Of a stretch of DNA of 64,000 nucleotides, positions 2,580-12,208 are shown one piece after another (position 1 is the first letter of the stretch; the number at the start of each line of letters is the position of its first letter). Under the pieces are notes generated by a model, which had not been told where the DNA came from, searched no databases, and saw only the letters and a list, made by a program, of their open reading frames with translations. The stretch is from Pseudovibrio sp. Alg231-02 (GTDB lineage Bacteria > Pseudomonadota > Alphaproteobacteria > Rhizobiales > Stappiaceae): NCBI RefSeq assembly GCF_900143565.1, contig NZ_FREX01000007.1:9-64008 (forward strand), written 5' to 3'. A program made the position numbers and the translations under genes.

Positions 2580-2898
2580 ACTTGGGTAAAGGTGATCAAC
2601 TGTCGTTCAGATAGGGCTTTACCCTACTGGGATTTGAACGAGGTCCATTTTAAAGATGAAGGGATTTTCGAAGTTTTTAGGAGAGACTTGCAGTTTACGC
2701 AAAGGAGCTTAACCTGCCTTTCGAGCAAGATTGGTCAAAGAGATTCCTTTGGTCGGTTCGGTAAAGTTTAGGGCCTTTGGTGCATTGCACAAAAACGATA
2801 CCAGCGCCTACGCTGGGAAAGAGAATAAAAAACGATTGGAACAGTTGGTAACGAGCGATTTCTGCTGGAAACCTATTTAACAGGCAAGAGGTTAGAAC

Positions 2899-4467
2899 AT
2901 GATCATAGGGGCTGCCAAGGAAGTCCTTGACGGGGAACGTCGGGTCGCGTTGACGCCGGACAGCGCCCAACAGCTGCAAAAGCTGGGATATGAGTGCGCT
3001 ATTGAATCCGGCGCCGGTGAAGCTGCAAACTTCTCTGACACAGATTATAAAGATGCTGGCGTAAAGGTTATCGCAGATGCAAAAACGCTCTGGGAAACCG
3101 CTGATATTGTCATCAAGGTCCGCCCGCCCGAAGCGTCTGAACTGGAACTGACACACGAGGGACAAACCCTCATCAGCTTCTTCTGGCCAGCGCAAAATGG
3201 TGAGCTTCTTCAGCAGTTTGCCGATAAAAAGGTCAACGTGCTGGCGATGGATATGGTGCCGCGTATCTCGCGCGCACAGAAGATGGATGCTCTGTCATCC
3301 ATGGCCAACATCGCTGGTTACCGCGCTGTTATGGAAGCTGGCAACAACTTCCCGCGCTTCTTCACCGGCCAGATCACCGCTGCCGGTAAAGTGCCACCAG
3401 CCAAAGTGCTCGTCATCGGCGCTGGCGTTGCAGGTCTTGCCGCAATTGGCGCCTCAACCTCTCTTGGCGCGATCACCCTTGCGTTCGACGTTCGCCCGGA
3501 AGTGGCTGAGCAGGTCGAATCCATGGGTGCTGAGTTCGTTTATCTGGACTTTGAGGAAGAGCAGCAGGACGGCGCCTCCACTGGCGGCTATGCCTCTGTT
3601 TCTTCTCCAGAATTCCGCGAAGCGCAGCTGGCGAAATTCCGCGAATTGGCACCAGATGTTGACATCGTCATCACCACAGCGCTGATCCCAGGCCGCGATG
3701 CGCCTGAGCTCTGGACCGAAGACATGGTCCAGTCCATGAAGCCGGGTTCTGTGATTGTTGACCTTGCTGCTGAAAAAGGCGGCAACTGTAAACTGACCAA
3801 GATGGACGAGAAGATTGTTACCGAAAACGGCGTCACCGTGATCGGTTATACTGACTTCCCATCCCGCATGGCAACGCAGTCCTCCACGCTGTACGCGACC
3901 AACATCCGTCACATGATGTTTGATCTGACCCCTGAGAAGGACGGTCAGGCCAATATCAACATGGAAGACGATGTTATCCGCGGTGCAACGGCAACCAAAG
4001 ACGGGGAAATCACCTTCCCACCGCCTAAGCCGAAGATCGCTGCAATTGCTGCTCAAAAGCCAAAGGCACCTGAGAAAACCCCAGAGGAACTCGCGCTTGA
4101 AGAGGCTGCTGCTGCCAAAGCTGCCGGTCGCAAACAGCTCGGTCTTCTGATTGGCGGTGGTGCTGTTATGGCGTTGATAGGTGCCTATGCGCCTGAAAGC
4201 TTTATGCAACACTTCATCGTGTTTGTCCTCGCAGTGTTTGTTGGCTTCCAGGTGATCTGGGGTGTGGCTCACTCCCTGCATACACCGCTTATGGCTGTAA
4301 CCAACGCAATCTCCGGCATCATCATTTTGGGCGCCGTGTTGCAGCTTGGCTCTGGCAGCTGGATCGTCTGGTTCCTCGCTGGCATCTCGGTGCTGATTGC
4401 ATCGGTCAACATCGTCGGCGGGTTTATGGTCACGCGCCGTATGCTCCAGATGTTCAACAAGTCTTAA
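2899..4467 (+). CDS. pntA: NAD(P) transhydrogenase, alpha subunit
   Basis: A 522-residue protein of the same plan and nearly the same length as E. coli PntA (about 510). With PntB it transfers hydride between NADH and NADP+ in the inner membrane, driven by the proton gradient. The N-terminal half is the NAD(H)-binding domain I, with the alanine-dehydrogenase-like start ([18 protein letters not shown]) and the nucleotide-binding loop GAGVAG at residues 174-179. An Ala/Lys/Pro-rich linker follows (about 375-410), then four membrane helices (about 412-515). Here alpha is one polypeptide, not split into the two genes common in many alphaproteobacteria. The ATG at 2899 begins right at the domain. 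pntB follows after 18 bp in the same operon. Confidence 0.97.
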
Positions 4468-4485
4468 GCGGGGGAGGGAAGCATT

Positions 4486-5874
4486 ATGTCTATTGGACTT
4501 CAAACCGCCGCTTATATTGCGGCAACCGTACTCTTCATCCTGTCTCTGGGCGGTCTGTCCAATCAGGAAAGCGCAAAACGCGCTGTTTGGTTTGGCATCG
4601 TCGGTATGGCACTGGCTGTTCTTGCAACAGTATTTGGCCCTGGTGTTGATCTTACAAGCCCAGCCGTTTTGATCATGTTGCTTGTGACTGTAACCGTTGG
4701 CTCCACTGCTGGCGTGATTGTGGCTCAACGCGTTGAAATGACTGGCATGCCGCAGCTTGTGGCAGCTCTGCACTCCTTCGTGGGTCTGGCTGCTGTGTTC
4801 ATCGGCATCAACTCAGATATCGCTCCACCAGCAGGTTTGGCAGGCGCGGAGCTGGTTATCCATGAAGCTGAAATCTTCATCGGCGTCTTCATCGGTGCTA
4901 TCACCTTCACCGGCTCCATTGTCGCTTATGGCAAACTTGCAGGAAAGATCGGCGGTAAGGCACTTCTGCTGCCGGGTCGTCATGCTCTCAACGCAGGCTT
5001 GCTCATTCTCGCAGTGATCCTGATGTTCATGTACATGAACCACGCAGGTTCCTGGACGCTCTACCTGATGACCCTGATCGCCTTCTTCATCGGTTGGCAC
5101 ATGGTTATGGCCATCGGCGGCGCTGACATGCCCGTTGTTGTTTCCATGCTGAACTCCTACTCCGGTTGGGCAGCAGCGGCGACAGGTTTCTTACTTGGCA
5201 ACGACCTGCTGATCGTAACAGGTGCTCTGGTTGGTTCTTCCGGTGCAATCCTCTCTTACATCATGTGTAAGGCGATGAACCGTCACTTCGTCTCCGTTAT
5301 TCTTGGCGGCTTTGGTACCACGACGGGTCCAGCGCAGGAAATCGAAGGCGAGATGGTTGCAACTGATACGGACTTCGTAGCCGAGACACTCAATGATGCA
5401 GATAGTGTCGTTATTGTACCAGGTTACGGCATGGCCGTTGCACAGGCGCAGCAGTCTGTTTCTGAGTTGACCAAGCGTCTGCGTGCCAAAGGCAAAAACG
5501 TCCGCTTCGCAATCCACCCGGTTGCCGGCCGTCTGCCAGGCCACATGAACGTGCTGCTCGCTGAAGCGAAAGTGCCTTACGATATCGTTCTGGAAATGGA
5601 TGAGATCAACGATGACTTCCCTGATACGGATGTTGTCATCATCATTGGCGCCAATGACATCGTGAACCCGGCTGCTCAGGAAGATCCAAACTCACCAATC
5701 GCTGGCATGCCAGTTCTGGAAGTTTGGAAAGCCAAGCACGTGTTCATCTCCAAACGTGGTCAGGGTACCGGTTACTCCGGCATCGAGAACCCACTGTTCT
5801 ACAAAGAGAACTCCCGCATGTACTACGGCGATGCGAAGAGTTCCATGAACAACCTACTGAGCAAAATCAGCTAG
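4486..5874 (+). CDS. pntB: NAD(P) transhydrogenase, beta subunit
   Basis: A 462-residue protein, the same length as E. coli PntB. The first roughly 270 residues form the beta part of the proton-conducting membrane domain, with about nine hydrophobic helices. The C-terminal domain III binds NADP(H); it starts at about residue 300, with the glycine-rich loop [12 protein letters not shown] (about 309-320), then [35 protein letters not shown] and the final [18 protein letters not shown]. It works with PntA to supply NADPH. A strong hairpin terminator begins 24 bp after the stop, so pntAB is a closed two-gene operon. A purine-rich GGGGGAGGGAAG site lies before the ATG. Confidence 0.97.
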
Positions 5875-5898
5875 TTTGATTTCTTGATAAAAACGATA

Positions 5899-5936
5899 AA
5901 CCCCGGAACGTGAGGAACGTTCCGGGGTTTTCTTTT
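5899..5936 (+). terminator. Rho-independent terminator of pntAB
   Basis: A perfect 13-bp stem (5899-5911 with 5917-5929) around a 5-base loop is followed by a T-rich run (TTTTCTTTT). It lies just after the pntB stop. Its partner strand is A-rich, so it may also serve the minus-strand gene ending at 5965. Confidence 0.9.
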
Positions 5937-5964
5937 CTTGCAATGCCTCTGCAAATGGCACTAC

Positions 5965-6360
5965 CTATTTTACGTTTATCTTATAGGTATCGGTAAAGTA
6001 ATTCATCTGGCTACCCTGAACATACTTAGGCATTGAATACCTAGTCTTAAATGTATCCTTGCCGTGATAGCCTTTCTTCGGGGTGTATACAACAACGACA
6101 GCGTTAAACTTCTTTCCGTAGCAACGTTGCCCTTTAGGAGGGTTGTACGTTGTTCTGCGGATTTCAACGCTTCCATGCTTGGGCGCAACTTTGACCTTTA
6201 CTTGAGCAATTGGACCTGAGGTACATTGGTTTTGGTTATAATAGACATGTCCGTTGACAACGGACGCTTTGCGCGCGGCGACATCGCGCGAATGTGTCTC
6301 CGCAGCCGCTGTGCTTAGACCAGTAATCAAAAAAACTGCTCCAACAAAATACTTGATCAT
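5965..6360 (-). CDS. Small secreted protein of unknown function
   Basis: A 131-residue product with a clear signal peptide (MIKYFVGAVFLITGLSTAAA, cut probably just after AAA). The mature part is rich in Lys, Tyr and Val and is predicted to be all beta. Two cysteines (in NQNQCTSG and GQRCYGK) could form a disulfide. The segment VYTPKKGYHGKDTFK resembles the YxPxxGxxGxDxF signature of bacterial Ig/cadherin-like beta-sandwich domains; that similarity is only motif-level. The ATG at 6360 has a good AGGTGGG site 7 bases ahead; a GTG 12 bases earlier overlaps that site and is less likely. It sits alone between two hairpins. The protein is probably periplasmic or surface-exposed. Confidence 0.65.
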   Translation of the reverse strand: MIKYFVGAVFLITGLSTAAAETHSRDVAARKASVVNGHVYYNQNQCTSGPIAQVKVKVAPKHGSVEIRRTTYNPPKGQRCYGKKFNAVVVVYTPKKGYHGKDTFKTRYSMPKYVQGSQMNYFTDTYKINVK

Positions 6361-6506
6361 CTCAGTTCCCACCTAATTCAGTTGTCAATGCTCCAGTTTT
6401 CAAGCCTTGTAGGCAGAAGGAACAAAAGAAGCAAAGAGTCTGTAGCTACTTATTAATCAGCTAGAACAGTATGTGGTAGATATACGCAAGTATATAATAT
6501 TTGTCA

Positions 6507-6536
6507 GGAACGCGTAGCCGTTTAGCCACGCGTTCC
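6507..6536 (-). terminator. Hairpin after the DUF5666-like gene
   Basis: Nine perfectly paired bases (GGAACGCGT at 6507-6515 with ACGCGTTCC at 6528-6536) surround a 12-base loop and lie 8 bp beyond the stop of the gene ending at 6545. No strong U-run follows on the minus strand, so it may act as an mRNA-stabilising hairpin or a weak terminator. Confidence 0.5.
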
Positions 6537-6544
6537 CGAGACGG

Positions 6545-7435
6545 CTACTGACAGCCAAGCTTCTCCAGTAATTCAGGATCTGCTGCTTTGGTCGGGTCAC
6601 TTCCAAGCTCGCCATCATACCCACACACAACCACTTTGGCTGTTTCGTCGATCATGTCTGGTTGGTCTGTGAAGGCCACCATGCCGGAGCCGAGCAAGGT
6701 GTAAAGACCGGTCGAGTTTGGCGGAGACAAGTAGCCTTCGGCCTGAACCAACCCGACTTTTCCATCAAAGATCCCAGCCTCTAATGACGTCGCGCGGATG
6801 CTGCCAGCTTCAGGTATCCCTATGACACGGATAACATCACCGGACTGAACGTGTTGCGGAATAATGCCTGCAATCAACGTGTTACCGATCTGTGGAACAT
6901 TGCTTGCGCCAACAGAAAGGTTGCTGCCGATGATGACTGCGGACTGGCGGGGTGGAACCACCTCAACGCGTGTTGCAACCACATCTTCATCTTGCCACAG
7001 ACCGCTGATCGCTACCCAGTCCCCTTGTTTCACCGTGGTCGCGATGGCCACTGGTACGTGAACGAACGTTCCCATAATCTCAAAGGTTCTGCCTGTCTCA
7101 TCTGACTTCACTTCAGAAACAGGCCCGATGATCGGCACAATTCTGCGGATACTCTTAGCTTCCCAATTTGAGCCAGTCAGAGCAGCAACAACGGCAACCG
7201 TATCTCCCGGTACCAATTGCGAGGCCGTCAGAGGGCCAAGTTCATTCTTGACTGGCAGATCCGGAGGGAAGGTGACGCGTTGATCATTTACGATAATGCT
7301 GCCGAGACGCGTAATCGTGCCGACAATGCCAGTCCCCAAAATACCGCCTTCACGCTCTTCTTCTGCGTGGCCTGCTGCTGGAGCGATCAGAAAAGTGGAT
7401 GCTATTAAAGCGGAAAGTGTGTGCCTCCAAACCAT
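6545..7435 (-). CDS. Secreted DUF5666-like beta-domain protein
   Basis: A 296-residue exported protein: signal peptide at residues 1-24 (HTLSALIASTFLIAPAAGHA), then repeated modules of about 60-70 residues that each read as short beta barrels. Each contains phrases of the type GxVxxI...GDxVxVxG (GTGIVGTITRLGSIIV; QLVPGDTVAVVAAL; VKQGDWVAISGLW; VQSGDVIRVIGIP), which is the DUF5666 style. A final Cys-containing tail (VVVCGYDG, KLGCQ) may form a disulfide. No catalytic motif is evident. Its start overlaps the stop of the upstream DUF6502-like gene by one base, so the two are translated from one transcript. Family assignment is from memory of the repeat pattern; function is unknown. Confidence 0.7.
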   Translation of the reverse strand: MVWRHTLSALIASTFLIAPAAGHAEEEREGGILGTGIVGTITRLGSIIVNDQRVTFPPDLPVKNELGPLTASQLVPGDTVAVVAALTGSNWEAKSIRRIVPIIGPVSEVKSDETGRTFEIMGTFVHVPVAIATTVKQGDWVAISGLWQDEDVVATRVEVVPPRQSAVIIGSNLSVGASNVPQIGNTLIAGIIPQHVQSGDVIRVIGIPEAGSIRATSLEAGIFDGKVGLVQAEGYLSPPNSTGLYTLLGSGMVAFTDQPDMIDETAKVVVCGYDGELGSDPTKAADPELLEKLGCQ

Positions 7436-8256
7436 TACGCAGCAGCCTCATCTGATTTTGGCTTTTTTTTTGGAAGGACGTAGGCCCCAAAGGCAAAACG
7501 GCCATTGGCGGTCTGTTCCGCATCATTCATTTGCATCTCCCGTGCCAGAGCGTTGACTTCTTCCAAAAGCATCTGGGCCTTCTCTTGCGTCAACCTGTTC
7601 AGAGTCTCCACTGACTCCTCTGACAAATGCGAATAACGCAGGATTCGATCAAAATTGAGAGCTTCTCCCTGAGGGGCAATTAAGTTGTGGGTAGCGGCCG
7701 AAAGGTGCGTCGAAAGTGTCGCCTGATAGGCAGCAACTTGTTCGGCACTTCCAGGTGCGGGCAAAAGGGCGTGAGTCAATAAACGATAAAATCCGTCATC
7801 TAATTCCGTAACGACACCTTGCTCAATGAGAGCCTCAAGAACGGTTCCCGGCGCCATATCAGCGCGTGTGAGGCGAACCAGCTCGTCAAAACCAGGCTCC
7901 TTTTCGCTGCCTTGCCGCGGCAAATTCCGGGGCGTTCCTTCTGCACTTTGAAACTCTGGAGCCGTTGCCCAATAACTGATTGCAAGGGCCGTCGCATTGA
8001 CGGATTTCTTGAGAGAACTGCCGTTTTCATCAGATCGTAACCGTTTGACATCCTTACGGTGAATGCCGGTCTTAAGGCTGACGCGGCTATCGGTCGTCTT
8101 ACCGGGATTTTCCTCAATAGCGGCCTGGAGCAGGGCCCGTTTCAGTGCCTCGGTCGCTGGCCCGATTGTGACGCCACGCGCCACCATCGCTTTTGCCAAT
8201 GGGGCAAGAAGCGCTGTGAGGGCGGTCTCAAAAGGGTCTGTTTGCTCGGGACTCAT
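7435..8256 (-). CDS. DUF6502-family protein
   Basis: A 273-residue soluble protein, no signal peptide, mainly helical. The N-terminal part (PFETALTALLAPLAKAMVARG, then ATEALKRALLQAA, then VSLKTGIHRKDVKRLR) looks like a helix-turn-helix DNA-binding region, as in DUF6502 proteins. A middle region (FDELVRLTRADMAPGTVLEAL) and a coiled-coil-like C-terminal helix (ESVETLNRLTQEKAQMLLEEVNAL broken at about residue 230) follow. It could be a transcriptional regulator of its own operon, but no target is known to me. It is the first gene of a two-gene operon with the secreted DUF5666-like protein and is divergent from the adenylation gene at 8409. The last residues are Lys-rich (PKKKPKSDE). Confidence 0.7.
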   Translation of the reverse strand: MSPEQTDPFETALTALLAPLAKAMVARGVTIGPATEALKRALLQAAIEENPGKTTDSRVSLKTGIHRKDVKRLRSDENGSSLKKSVNATALAISYWATAPEFQSAEGTPRNLPRQGSEKEPGFDELVRLTRADMAPGTVLEALIEQGVVTELDDGFYRLLTHALLPAPGSAEQVAAYQATLSTHLSAATHNLIAPQGEALNFDRILRYSHLSEESVETLNRLTQEKAQMLLEEVNALAREMQMNDAEQTANGRFAFGAYVLPKKKPKSDEAAA

Positions 8257-8320
8257 TTCCGTTTCCTGTGCTGTCCAGTTCTCTAATCATTACACCAGAA
8301 TTTTTCATCCTACGAATTCG

Positions 8321-8348
8321 TTACTGCTTGTTGAACACTTGTTATACT
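8321..8348 (+). promoter_or_regulatory. Candidate sigma-70 promoter for the adenylation operon
   Basis: TTACTG (8321-8326), a 16-base spacer and TATACT (8343-8348) form a fair -35/-10 pair, about 60 bp before the ATG at 8409. It is the best match in the 150-bp gap between the divergent genes. The -10 element is followed at once by an inverted repeat. Confidence 0.4.
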
Positions 8349-8350
8349 CA

Positions 8351-8369
8351 AATGGGAATTTTTCCCATT
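8351..8369 (+). promoter_or_regulatory. Perfect inverted repeat just downstream of the promoter, candidate operator
   Basis: AATGGGAA, TTT, TTCCCATT: eight perfectly paired bases with a 3-base centre, starting 3 bp after the proposed -10 element. Position and symmetry suit a repressor site that would block transcription of the 8.4-12.2 kb operon. As RNA it would be a small hairpin in the leader. Confidence 0.45.
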
Positions 8370-8408
8370 ATCTAGAATGAGTGATTATCACCATAAGAGG
8401 GACTCGCC

Positions 8409-10046
8409 ATGCGGGATATTGCTGCAGATTATCTAAATGACATTCGGCCAGTGTTTCCGGCCATGCCAAAACTGACAGGAGTTGCGCCACGCAATCCACT
8501 TCTGTCGGCATTGAGCGATTTTGATCAGGAACGTTTTCTGGATTTTGGATGGGGACCAGAAAACGCTCCACGCTTTCCAACTATCATTTCCGCAATGAAC
8601 CACTTTATGGCTGCGCAGCCAAATGCCGTCGCAGCTGAGTATCAAGATCAGGAGATCAGCTACGGTGAGTTGAATGACGCCGCGAACCGGCTCGCTCACA
8701 CCTTGGCACAGCACGGCGTAAAGAGAGGGGACGCCGTTTGCCTGTACCTGCATCGTTCCATTCCAATGCTGGTCGGCATCGTCGCAGCTCTTCGTGTAGG
8801 TGCTGCATATATTCCACAGCATGTGGGCGTCGCTCCTGAAAAGGCATTGAACCACATCGCAGCAGTGACCGGTGCGCAAGTCATTCTAACGCTGCGCAGC
8901 CTTAAAGATCAGGTGCCGGTTGCAGAGGGCCAAACTCTTATCGCGATTGAAGATGTAATCGAGGATGAAACTCTGCCGGCCACGCCACTAGAGGGCGAAC
9001 AACATAAAGCACAGCCGGACGATCTGTGCATGATCCTGTTCACCTCTGGCACTACAGGCGTCCCGAATGGCGTTCAGGTCACCCACAAGAACCTATGCAA
9101 CATTTTGCAAACCAGCCCTGGTGATCTTGGCATGCGTCCGGGGTTGCGGGTGGGTCAAATTCTTTCGATCGCATTTGATATGGCGGCTTGGGAAACTCTT
9201 GGTGCTGTTTCAAACGGCGCTACGCTGGTTATTCGCGGCAAAAGCATTCAGGAAACAGCCGAAAAGGTGGACGTGCTGATTGCAACACCGTCAATCCTGA
9301 ACTCGCTTGATCACAGCCGTTGCCAGCAGGTGCAAACTGCTGCTGTTGCGGGAGAACCATGCCCAAGACCTCTTGCAGACACTTGGAGTAGCTTCTGCCG
9401 CTTCTACAATTCTTGCGGACCAACAGAAACCACCATCATCAATACAGCCGAACCGCATTATCCGGGAAAGGAAATCCTATCCATTGGACGTCCGACGCCT
9501 AACAACACGGTTTATGTTCTGGATGAAAACCTGCGCCCCGTTGCCATTGGCGAGAAGGGCGAAATGTGGGCTGGTGGTGATTGTGTAACTGCTGGATACC
9601 TTGCCAATCCCGAGCTTACGCTTGACCGTTATCGACCTGACCCATTCCGTCCCGGTCACATGATGTTCCGTACCAAAGACCTTGGTCGCTGGACCAACAC
9701 AGGTGAGCTGGAGCACTTTGGGCGGGTTGATGATCTGGTGAAAATCCGCGGTTTCCGTGTGGAGCTGGATGGCGTTTCCAACACATTGGAAGCCACGGAA
9801 GGCTGTGATCAGGCGGTCACGCTCAAGTTCGACAGCCGTAATCTGGTCGCCTTCATCAGTCCGGCGAATGTGTGCACCAACACTGCGGCCCAGTCCGTGA
9901 AAGACAAACTTCCTTATTATTGTAGTCCAACACTGATCCTTTCTATGGAGGAGTTGCCTCGCACACCACGCGGGAAGTTGGACAAGCGCCTGCTTTTGAA
10001 GTTGGCACAAGACCATATTGACGCTCAGGGTGTGGAGTTAAATTAA
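8409..10046 (+). CDS. Stand-alone amino-acid-type adenylation enzyme (NRPS-like, no carrier domain)
   Basis: A 545-residue ANL-superfamily adenylating enzyme. NRPS core motifs occur in order: LFTSGTTGVPNG (A3, near 210), FDMAAWE (A4), NSCGPTETT (A5, near 333), FRTKDLGRW (A7), GRVDDLVKIRGFRVEL (A8, near 437) and PRTPRGKLDKR (A10 lysine, near 525). In PheA numbering FDMAAWE gives Asp235 and Trp239; Asp235 usually holds the alpha-amino group, so an amino-acid-like substrate is inferred. The chain ends 20 residues after A10, with no phosphopantetheine carrier, condensation or reductase domain. The acyl-AMP must go to a separate acceptor (amine, CoA or carrier). Good ribosome-binding site (AAGAGGGA). 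The stop shares one base with the next ATG. Confidence 0.85.
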   Translation: MRDIAADYLNDIRPVFPAMPKLTGVAPRNPLLSALSDFDQERFLDFGWGPENAPRFPTIISAMNHFMAAQPNAVAAEYQDQEISYGELNDAANRLAHTLAQHGVKRGDAVCLYLHRSIPMLVGIVAALRVGAAYIPQHVGVAPEKALNHIAAVTGAQVILTLRSLKDQVPVAEGQTLIAIEDVIEDETLPATPLEGEQHKAQPDDLCMILFTSGTTGVPNGVQVTHKNLCNILQTSPGDLGMRPGLRVGQILSIAFDMAAWETLGAVSNGATLVIRGKSIQETAEKVDVLIATPSILNSLDHSRCQQVQTAAVAGEPCPRPLADTWSSFCRFYNSCGPTETTIINTAEPHYPGKEILSIGRPTPNNTVYVLDENLRPVAIGEKGEMWAGGDCVTAGYLANPELTLDRYRPDPFRPGHMMFRTKDLGRWTNTGELEHFGRVDDLVKIRGFRVELDGVSNTLEATEGCDQAVTLKFDSRNLVAFISPANVCTNTAAQSVKDKLPYYCSPTLILSMEELPRTPRGKLDKRLLLKLAQDHIDAQGVELN

Positions 10047-11359
10047 TGACTATTGAAGCAACAACTGCCGAAACACGCAGTTACAACTGGCGACGTATTA
10101 CGCGCCATCCATCCTTGATGGAATACAACCGACTGGTGATGCTGGTCGCCGTGGTTAACATCGCAGTCTTCATCGCTGGTTTACAGGACGGACGCTGGTT
10201 TGCTGAAACCGGCTTTGCTCTTGGTGCTATTGCAGACATGGCGTTGATCAACCTGTCACTTGGCATCCTGATCCGTCAGCAAAGGGTGGTCAACGCCTTG
10301 TTCTGGATGGCAACCCGCATTCCAACCAGCTGGCCGCTCTGGCTTCGTTGGGGCGCTGGCAAGGTGTTCCACTTTGGAGGGCTTCATTCCAGCAGCACTG
10401 TGTCCGGCACAATCTGGTTTGGCTTCCTGCTTTACGCCATGGTGGCGAACCGTATTGAAGGGGCTGCGTTGCCGTCAGACCAAACGCTAGCTCTCAGCGG
10501 GGCGATGGTCTCGTTGATGGTCTTGCTGATCGTCACGGCACAAGGAGGTTTCCGCGCGCGCCATCATAACACCTTTGAGAAGGTGCACCGTTTTGTTGGT
10601 TGGACAGTGCTTGGCCTGTTTTGGGCACAGACTGTTTCTATCACGCAGGATACTGGTGGCATTCTAATGGAAACTCCAGCGTTCTGGATGCTCTGCCTCA
10701 TCACACTGTCCATCGTCTCACCATGGCTGTCGTTGAAGCGTGTCAAAGTGGACGTGGTGAAGCCCTCTAACCATGCTGTTTTGGCAAAGTTCGATTATGG
10801 CGACACGCCATTCCCGGGCAGCTCAAACGCAATCAGTCACACACCATTTGGCGAGTATCACGCGTTTGCGAACATCCCTTCGCCGAAAGAGACTGGGTAT
10901 CGTCTCGCTATCAGTCGGGCAGGAGACTGGACAGGAGACTTCATTGAAAACCCGCCAAGCCATGTCTGGGTGAAGGGCATCACCACCTCTGGTGTTGCGC
11001 GTATCGAGGTGTTGTTCAAGAAGGTGGTTTACGTCGGCACTGGTTCTGGCATTGGTCCTATTGTACCGCATCTGCTCGCAGGTGACGTGCCGAACAAGGT
11101 GATTTGGTCCACACGCAACCCACGTAAAACCTATGGTGATGCTTTCGTTGACGAGATTGAAGCAAGTACCGAGAATCCGGTGATTTGGGATACGGATTCT
11201 CAAGGAAAGCCTGATCTGACCGCATTAACTCTGAAAGCGGTTGAAGAGAGCGGTGCAGAGGCTGTTATCGTGATTTCCAACCAGAAACTGACCCGCAAAC
11301 TCGTTCATGACATGGAAAGCTTCGGCATTCCTGCTTACGGCGCAATTTGGGATAGCTGA
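10046..11359 (+). CDS. Membrane flavoprotein with ferric-reductase-like helices and a ferredoxin-reductase-like C terminus
   Basis: A 437-residue protein. Residues about 25-235 form five to six membrane helices with paired histidines (FHFGGLH, His 109 and 114; RHHNTFEKVHR, His 172-173 and 181) that could ligate heme as in ferric-reductase-like transmembrane proteins; heme binding is inference. The soluble C-terminal half has beta-barrel features (PFPGSSNAISHTPFGEYHAF), then a nucleotide-binding loop GTGSGIGPIVPHLLAG (near 330-345) and a final ESFGIPAYGAIWDS, in the manner of ferredoxin-NADP reductase domains. It would pass electrons across or within the membrane from NAD(P)H. It lies between the adenylation enzyme (one-base overlap) and the crotonase (2-bp gap), so it is tightly co-translated with both. 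I know no characterised bacterial homologue. Confidence 0.75.
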   Translation: MTIEATTAETRSYNWRRITRHPSLMEYNRLVMLVAVVNIAVFIAGLQDGRWFAETGFALGAIADMALINLSLGILIRQQRVVNALFWMATRIPTSWPLWLRWGAGKVFHFGGLHSSSTVSGTIWFGFLLYAMVANRIEGAALPSDQTLALSGAMVSLMVLLIVTAQGGFRARHHNTFEKVHRFVGWTVLGLFWAQTVSITQDTGGILMETPAFWMLCLITLSIVSPWLSLKRVKVDVVKPSNHAVLAKFDYGDTPFPGSSNAISHTPFGEYHAFANIPSPKETGYRLAISRAGDWTGDFIENPPSHVWVKGITTSGVARIEVLFKKVVYVGTGSGIGPIVPHLLAGDVPNKVIWSTRNPRKTYGDAFVDEIEASTENPVIWDTDSQGKPDLTALTLKAVEESGAEAVIVISNQKLTRKLVHDMESFGIPAYGAIWDS

Positions 11360-11361
11360 TC

Positions 11362-12150
11362 ATGTATGAAACCATTGAAACATCTGTCGAAGGTCGCGTT
11401 GCAACCATTCGCTTCAATCGGCCAAAAGCGCTGAATGCACTTAACTCCCAGGTTCTGGAAGAGGTGCTGGATGCGGCAACCAAGTATGATGCAGATCCTG
11501 CCATCGGGTGCCTAATTCTGACTGGTAATGAGCGAGCCTTTGCAGCTGGTGCTGATATCGCAGAGCTCAACGTGCAGGATTATGCCAGCATGTACGCCAG
11601 CAACTTTTTCACCGGATGGGATCGTTTTGCAGCGCTTCGCATCCCGAAGATTGCAGCAGTCTCCGGCTATGCCTTGGGCGGCGGCTGTGAGGTCGCCATG
11701 ATGTGCGATATCATTTTGGCGTCAGACACGGCTAAGTTTGGCCAGCCGGAAGTGAAGATCGGCTGTATTCCAGGCATTGGTGGGTCTCAGCGTCTGACTA
11801 AGTTGGTTGGTAAAGCACGCGCAATGGATCTCATCCTCACGGGCCGCATGATTGATGCGCAAGAGGCTTACGACATGGGTCTCATCAGCAGAAAGATCCC
11901 TGCTGATGAACTGATGACCGTTGCGAATGAGACTGCAAAAACCATAGCGGGATATGCGCGGGACATCACTATGATGGCACGGGCCTGCGTAAATGCGGCG
12001 GATGAAAACTCGTTGGAAAATGGCATCCGCTTTGAGCGGCAGATGTACCATGCCTTGTTTGGCTCATCTGCCCAGAAAGAGGGTATGGCCGCGTTCCTCG
12101 AAAAGCGACCGCCAAACTTCAATGAGCAAGCAGAGCTGGAAGACGCTTAA
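11362..12150 (+). CDS. Enoyl-CoA hydratase/isomerase (crotonase) family protein
   Basis: A 262-residue crotonase: N-terminal VATIRFNRPKALNALNSQ, oxyanion-hole segment RAFAAGADIAEL and ALGGGCEVAMMCD, then the catalytic-region phrase FGQPEVKIGCIPGIGGSQRL. The first catalytic Glu (QPE) is present. The second, which is Glu in mammalian mitochondrial hydratase (AMEMVLTG), is Asp here (AMDLILTG), a substitution seen in many bacterial members. The expected reaction is hydration of a 2-enoyl-CoA, but the operon context (adenylation enzyme, membrane flavoprotein) suggests a specialised acyl substrate. It ends the operon; a terminator hairpin starts 12 bp after the stop. Family is certain, substrate unknown. 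Confidence 0.93.
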   Translation: MYETIETSVEGRVATIRFNRPKALNALNSQVLEEVLDAATKYDADPAIGCLILTGNERAFAAGADIAELNVQDYASMYASNFFTGWDRFAALRIPKIAAVSGYALGGGCEVAMMCDIILASDTAKFGQPEVKIGCIPGIGGSQRLTKLVGKARAMDLILTGRMIDAQEAYDMGLISRKIPADELMTVANETAKTIAGYARDITMMARACVNAADENSLENGIRFERQMYHALFGSSAQKEGMAAFLEKRPPNFNEQAELEDA

Positions 12151-12161
12151 CTAAACGAGAG

Positions 12162-12195
12162 ACGCCCGGATACAACATCAGCTTTCCGGGCGTTT
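12162..12195. terminator. Hairpin between convergent genes (bidirectional terminator)
   Basis: ACGCCCGGA (12162-12170) pairs perfectly with TCCGGGCGT (12185-12193) around a 14-base loop, with a short T-run on each strand. It separates the plus-strand crotonase (stop 12150) from the minus-strand LysR gene (stop 12209) and probably serves both. Confidence 0.8.
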
Positions 12196-12208
12196 CAGCT
12201 CTTAAGCA

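Follow-up and report, generated by a model that had tools for sequence, protein, structure and literature searches.

The 64,000-nucleotide stretch of DNA analysed here (the window), from Pseudovibrio sp. Alg231-02, carries at positions 8409–12150 a block of three genes encoding an adenylation enzyme (A), a membrane flavoprotein (TM) and an enoyl-coenzyme A (CoA) hydratase (ECH). These genes very probably form one conserved unit that resembles the fungal proteins TmpB and TmpL. They are as follows.

8409–10046, + strand: A, 545 amino acids (aa), a stand-alone adenylation enzyme of the nonribosomal peptide synthetase (NRPS) type with no carrier domain
10046–11359, + strand: TM, 437 aa, a six-helix membrane flavoprotein with a predicted NADPH oxidase (NOX) fold and motifs for flavin adenine dinucleotide (FAD) and NAD(P)H
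11362–12150, + strand: ECH, 262 aa, an enoyl-CoA hydratase (crotonase) with a candidate catalytic Glu pair

Base 10046 is both the last base of the A stop codon (TAA) and the first of the TM start codon (ATG), and 2 bp separate the stop of TM from the start of ECH. An earlier reading of this DNA (the original prediction) had described three genes with a one-base overlap and a 2-bp gap; its coordinates were correct, and all three genes lie on the + strand.

Conservation of the block was assessed in 27 proteobacterial loci with a TM homologue, each genome or record being counted once. Nineteen were alphaproteobacterial (8 from Pseudovibrio), and the 8 others comprised two from Pseudomonas, one from a Pantoea plasmid and five from genomes of one family in another class, which is probably the Gammaproteobacteria. 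A adjoined TM in 25 of the 27 loci (19/19 alphaproteobacterial, 6/8 other), and ECH belonged to the block in 21 (18/19 and 3/8), with a shortened remnant in one more (L027). These counts take in copies with broken reading frames in the draft Pseudovibrio genomes G005 (L016; A and ECH) and G008 (L017; ECH), where the breaks may reflect sequencing error or decay. The A–TM adjacency spanned different classes and held down to about 50% identity. Among 101 related genomes, TM (E 0.001) and A (E 1e-100) each occurred in nine, and these were the same nine. TM was rare in wider samples: it was present in 3 of 385 genomes of a wider class sample (one being the window's own genome and one that of the outgroup L043), in 4 of 398 of a wider phylum sample (again including the window's own genome) and in 5 of 144 from the family of G584, a genome with a TM locus that is itself one of the five. 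A profile search of 321 genomes from the class of G584 returned a single match; because this was G584 itself, TM is rare in that class. The original prediction had named homologues that mostly occur apart as one outcome fatal to a single system, and the distribution of A and TM was the opposite.

Evolutionary distances pointed in the same direction. The distances of A and TM were correlated with r 0.959 over 17 loci and 0.782 over 12 alphaproteobacterial loci, those of A and ECH with 0.896 and 0.509, and those of TM and ECH with 0.897 and 0.413; no permutation out of 500 reached the observed value, except for one out of 500 for A and ECH in the alphaproteobacteria. These correlations support joint inheritance rather than interaction, because shared descent alone can yield them. 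The match to TM at locus L043 (genome G479), with 25% identity over 170 residues, resembles ferric-reductase-type proteins in general. L043 was treated as an outgroup and left out of the 27 loci; it was included under A1 and left out under A2 and A5 (our labels).

When the single TM sequence was used as query, no match was obtained in Pfam or NCBIfam at E 0.001, among PDB sequences at E 1, or in PADLOC at the limits used, and a family profile was therefore needed. This profile reached DUOX1 and NOX2, and PF01794 (Ferric_reduct) matched some TM relatives weakly, below its cut-off. The predicted structure of TM had the full NOX fold, in which six long helices precede the reductase domain (a plain hydropathy scan gave five); the identity in structure matches to NOX-type proteins was 12–17%. 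The motifs for FAD and NAD(P)H were intact (H272-x-F274, GSGIGP at 333–338 and the invariant W435), and the ferredoxin-reductase-like C terminus of the original prediction was thus recovered. Judged by its sequence, TM is a relative of ferric reductases and NADPH oxidases. The original prediction had named a known ferric reductase with unrelated neighbours as its other refuting case; the neighbours of TM are non-random.

NOX family proteins carry four histidines that bind two haems, and in NOX2 the inner haem is held by the first His of helix TM3 and of helix TM5, the outer haem by the second His of each. In the TM family, H114, H174 and H181 were invariant (22/22 alignment rows), whereas no row had His at positions 127, 128 or 194, and only the three cyanobacterial rows had His at 195. 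Profile alignment with NOX2 placed H181 at the first His of helix TM5 and A194 at the second, and H114 lies near the start of the helix at 111–137, taken as helix TM3 from the model. TM shares with SpNOX, NOX2, NOX5 and DUOX the whole fold, the FAD and NADPH motifs and the first His of helix TM5, but differs from them in having no outer-haem histidines. The paired histidines of the original prediction hold with a qualification: three histidines are invariant, but the outer-haem positions are not among them. TM could thus bind one haem on the NADPH side but probably no outer haem, and its electrons should stay at the inner face of the membrane. A NOX fold without outer-haem histidines is new here.

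Two groups of TM homologues stand alone on plasmids. Those of three cyanobacterial plasmids (L035, L036 and L037, from Calothrix and Fischerella) share 25–27% identity with TM, carry the His at 195 in helix TM5 and are each followed by a gene for an HlyD-type protein of about 415 aa. The homologue of a Pantoea piersonii plasmid (L034, 8953–10308; 45%) lies between genes for a major facilitator superfamily transporter and an ATPase, with siderophore-related genes 5–8 kb away, and a second Pantoea plasmid record carries the same match.

A matched PF00501 (232 bits) and, above the cut-off, TIGR01733 (320 vs 317.4), and neither a PP-binding (carrier) nor a condensation domain was detected in it by Pfam at E 0.001, in agreement with the stand-alone NRPS-type enzyme originally described. 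Its pocket, assigned by hand from motif anchors, reads D257, M258, W261, S295 (or I296), A312, A314, S335, I343, I344 and K523, and both the Asp for the α-amino group (D257) and the A10 Lys (K523) are present. The Asp235/Trp239 pair of the original prediction corresponds to the PheA-type D257 and W261, which were equated with PheA 235/239 by motif. Among the aligned A proteins, K523 and I296 were found in 18/18 and D257 in 17/18; the exception, L027, has Gly in place of this key Asp and, with its shortened ECH, appears to be decaying. The window contained no other TIGR01733 or carrier match. In the whole genome nine matches exceeded the NRPS adenylation cut-off, and all but A lay in large frames on contig C4, which combine adenylation and carrier domains; the trio is on C7. 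Carrier matches consisted of one frame of 81 aa, the size of an acyl carrier protein (ACP) and probably the fatty-acid ACP, and 11 matches in frames of at least 1374 aa. Ten of these 11 were on C4, and the other, on C7, was some 260 kb away from the trio. Apart from the 81-aa frame, the search of the genome thus gave no free-standing carrier protein.

The third gene was confirmed as a crotonase. E110 and E130 of ECH, the candidate catalytic pair, were invariant (14/14 aligned), and this pair is kept in the matches to EchA8 (312 bits) and to mitochondrial short-chain enoyl-CoA hydratase (252 bits). ECH differs from these hydratases in scoring under the NF004517 cut-off (368 vs 396) and in its place in the A–TM block. 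The accessible part of a Pseudovibrio gene-cluster paper mentions an enoyl-CoA hydratase a single time, for a domain found within NRPS clusters.

In architecture, the first two genes match, part by part, a family of fungal fusion proteins that includes TmpB of A. nidulans (AN9129), TmpL of A. fumigatus and A. brassicicola, and ChNPS12-type proteins described as "A plus ferric reductase". In these, a PheA-type adenylation domain is followed by a six-helix membrane module binding FAD and NAD(P). No thiolation or condensation domain has been reported in the fungal proteins, and none was found in the bacterial A; A and TM together amount to 982 aa, compared with 989, 994 and 1025 aa in fungi, and the GSGIGP motif is shared. 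According to the accessible part of its description (PMC4804170), the 989-aa TmpB has PheA-like residues D238, W242, C307, G309, I315 and K495, and an enoyl-CoA hydratase/isomerase gene is among the neighbours of tmpB, as ECH is here. The G-to-K spacing of the adenylation domain is 186 in both (193 in PheA), whereas the D-to-G spacing is 80 here and 71 in TmpB (89 in PheA), and pocket position 322 is Ser here and Cys in TmpB. The palindrome and the DUF6502 gene described below belong to the bacterial locus. Because A and TM are two genes sharing one base and are not fused, we do not file the pair as TmpB but as its operon counterpart. TmpB and TmpL affect sporulation, redox balance and virulence in fungi. 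Kim et al. reported TmpL to be present only in filamentous fungi. In the tree of Bushley and Turgeon, as given in the accessible part of that paper (PMC2823734), stand-alone adenylation domains of Hahella and Salinispora are nested in the fungal NPS12 clade and are read as single domains.

To judge from the genus name, one of those Salinispora sequences would be Sare0718 of Salinispora arenicola CNS-205, a stand-alone adenylation enzyme (1671 bp) with the code DMWIAAAIVK. Although Val was predicted as its substrate, Sare0718 activated L-Ala among the 20 amino acids in vitro (Km 0.12 mM). Consecutive locus tags there denote an enoyl-CoA hydratase/isomerase, a hypothetical protein (sare0717) and the adenylation enzyme. 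The codes aligned by hand were DMW[S/I]AASIIK in the window and DMW[S/I]AAAIVK in Pseudomonas L028; when the fourth position is read as I296, that of L028 equals the Sare0718 code and that of the window has two differences from it. The Vfm quorum-sensing system of Dickeya likewise includes stand-alone adenylation enzymes; it was considered and dropped: the words "ferric", "enoyl-CoA" and "crotonase" do not occur in the main text of the paper on it. No paper describing the bacterial trio as a system was found in open-licence PubMed Central. The original prediction that no characterised bacterial pathway has this trio thus holds for the pathway, but not for its parts, for which the fungal TmpB/TmpL fusion and the assayed Sare0718 are precedents. 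New here, besides the unusual NOX fold, are the bacterial operon and its likely regulation, which involves the following features around the block.

8351–8369: palindrome AATGGGAA-TTT-TTCCCATT, by its sequence a probable operator, just 3′ of a −10-like TATACT (8343–8348)
7435–8256, − strand: DUF6502 protein, 273 aa, a probable DNA-binding regulator, divergent from A
6545–7435, − strand: DUF5666 protein, 296 aa, whose first base is common to the DUF6502 stop
12159–12196: terminator-like hairpin between ECH and a convergent LysR-type gene

Both the perfect inverted repeat upstream of A and the terminator expected to close the block were located. The palindrome was matched once in the window scan with up to 2 mismatches, compared with 0.03 matches expected by chance. 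A promoter-like pair, TTACTG-16-TATACT, was read by hand upstream of A; it was not listed by the automatic scan, whose own totals were near those of shuffles. The hairpin after ECH has a 12-bp stem and −22.8 kcal/mol (z −5.67; none of 200 shuffles as good), and was missed by the same scan because the loop exceeds the length limit set there. The palindrome was surveyed in 18 upstream regions from the alphaproteobacterial loci (the 19 minus G002, where it has one mismatch) and in 6 from the other loci with A. It was present with a TGGGA/TCCCA core and arms of at least 7 bases in 14 of the 18, degraded in two (L019 and L045) and absent from two (L017 and L024); none of the 6 others had it. A DUF6502 gene divergent from A was found at all 15 of the 18 loci that have a perfect or degraded palindrome and a visible neighbour, which leaves out L045; the copy in G005 contains an in-frame stop. 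The gene was found neither in the G008 genome (L017) nor, in L024, within 1.3 kb upstream of A. Among 16 Pseudovibrio genomes, the palindrome (up to one mismatch) occurred once in each of the seven with DUF6502 and the trio, and was not found in G008, which has the trio and not DUF6502. A single palindrome per genome fits a local regulator. A site one mismatch off (G014:C9:101545-101563) was also seen in a Pseudovibrio genome that lacks both TM and DUF6502.

The DUF6502 model (predicted local distance difference test score 70.9, predicted template-modelling score 0.40) contained two helix-turn-helix-like pieces, and Foldseek found no match to it at E ≤0.001 (best HetR, E 0.0088). Because the fold match is not significant, DNA binding by DUF6502 is suggested by these pieces of a moderate model together with the palindrome; on this footing DUF6502 is likely to be the regulator of the operon. 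No paper on DUF6502 was found in open-licence PubMed Central.

As a whole, we favour the reading that the trio, mechanism included, is the unfused bacterial counterpart of TmpB/TmpL with its neighbouring ECH. In the proposed mechanism, A would form an aminoacyl adenylate, its substrate being an aliphatic L-amino acid of small or medium size. The best guess is L-Ala, the amino acid activated by Sare0718, whose pocket is almost identical. The aminoacyl group would then pass to CoA or another small acceptor; this is favoured because the locus has no carrier and the genome no free-standing one apart from the 81-aa frame. TM would move electrons from NADPH through FAD to a single inner-leaflet haem and act by redox chemistry on a membrane-near acyl product; without an outer haem, it should be unable to carry electrons through to the other side, as superoxide-making NOX enzymes do. 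Enzymes of the ECH type act on CoA esters, and ECH would add water to an α,β-unsaturated one. The product would be a small metabolite in redox or stress signalling, switched by DUF6502. The steps after adenylation are unlikely to be right exactly as written. The model of the original prediction, in which the activated group goes to CoA or an amine and its chain is then reduced or hydrated, is likewise a guess. Somewhat less doubtful, but still tentative, is the wider idea that bacteria and fungi share a pathway from a simple amino acid (L-Ala or similar) to a redox or developmental signal, with carrier-free handover by A, a one-haem NOX-type TM, finishing by ECH and, in bacteria, the DUF6502 switch. 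If so, separate bacterial proteins would open TmpB/TmpL chemistry to purification and assay step by step, and bacteria may offer a way to study a poorly understood fungal pathway whose enzyme is required for spores to form normally. The operon would also bring together the genetics done in fungi, the assays of the Salinispora enzyme and the work on the NOX fold, which were unconnected in the papers found.

Several observations weigh against this interpretation. TM has no ECH next to it in G938, G584, G847, the Pantoea plasmid and G058 (the only such alphaproteobacterial locus, where the contig ends 757 bases after TM), the three cyanobacterial plasmids have neither A nor ECH near TM, and within the alphaproteobacteria the ECH distances track those of A and TM less closely (r 0.41–0.51). 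The pairing of palindrome and DUF6502 was observed in alphaproteobacteria only. It is not obvious how L-Ala could be turned into a CoA ester suited to a hydratase; the authors of the Sare0718 study warn that its in vivo substrate may differ, and its phosphopantetheinyl transferase neighbour, a difference from the present locus, suggests that there is a carrier after all. The number of haems was derived from residue positions and a cofactor-free model, with H114 placed by a model helix and not by NOX alignment. The fungal FAD motif, quoted as RLHFD, was not matched letter for letter, and the suggested orthology with the fungal and Salinispora proteins draws on architecture and published descriptions.

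Of the alternatives, the one that survives best, though we consider it unlikely, is a redox-defence module in which TM, as an NADPH-dependent reductase, detoxifies or senses reactive oxygen at the membrane while A and ECH make or recycle an organic substrate. In Pseudomonas anatoliensis (L027) and P. iridis (L028), at about 2860–9885, genes for a catalase-family protein and for cytochrome b561 follow A, TM and ECH on the same strand, and the L028 block is divergent from a gene for an extracytoplasmic function sigma factor and an unclassified 250-aa gene, possibly an anti-sigma factor. In the window itself, frames at 2899–5874 look on hand reading like the PntAB subunits of an NADP transhydrogenase, a source of NADPH, with no proven link to the trio. 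Fungal tmpL mutants are hypersensitive to oxidative stress, which the Pseudomonas neighbours fit, but the A. nidulans study (PMC4804170) found no sensitivity of tmpB mutants to H2O2 or menadione. Decidedly improbable is an accessory role in an ordinary NRPS pathway, with A acting in trans to load the carrier of a different NRPS, whose peptide TM and ECH would tailor: the large frames on C4 and the transferase beside Sare0718 speak for it, whereas the trio lies on another contig, with no second adenylation or carrier match in the window and no free-standing carrier beyond the 81-aa frame. That TM is a plain ferric or quinone reductase with chance or convenient neighbours, as its stand-alone copies in G847 and the Pantoea and cyanobacterial plasmids might suggest, is very improbable and largely refuted by its adjacency to A, their occurrence in the same nine genomes and the fusion of the two types in fungi.

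Two further genes were noted beside the block. A 2-isopropylmalate-synthase-like (HMGL/LeuA) gene follows A, TM and ECH on the same strand in L040 (5525–7255; genome G876), and the gene next to DUF6502 encodes a DUF5666 protein, both in the window and in each of the five relatives that were scanned (L021, L022, L023, L044 and L047).

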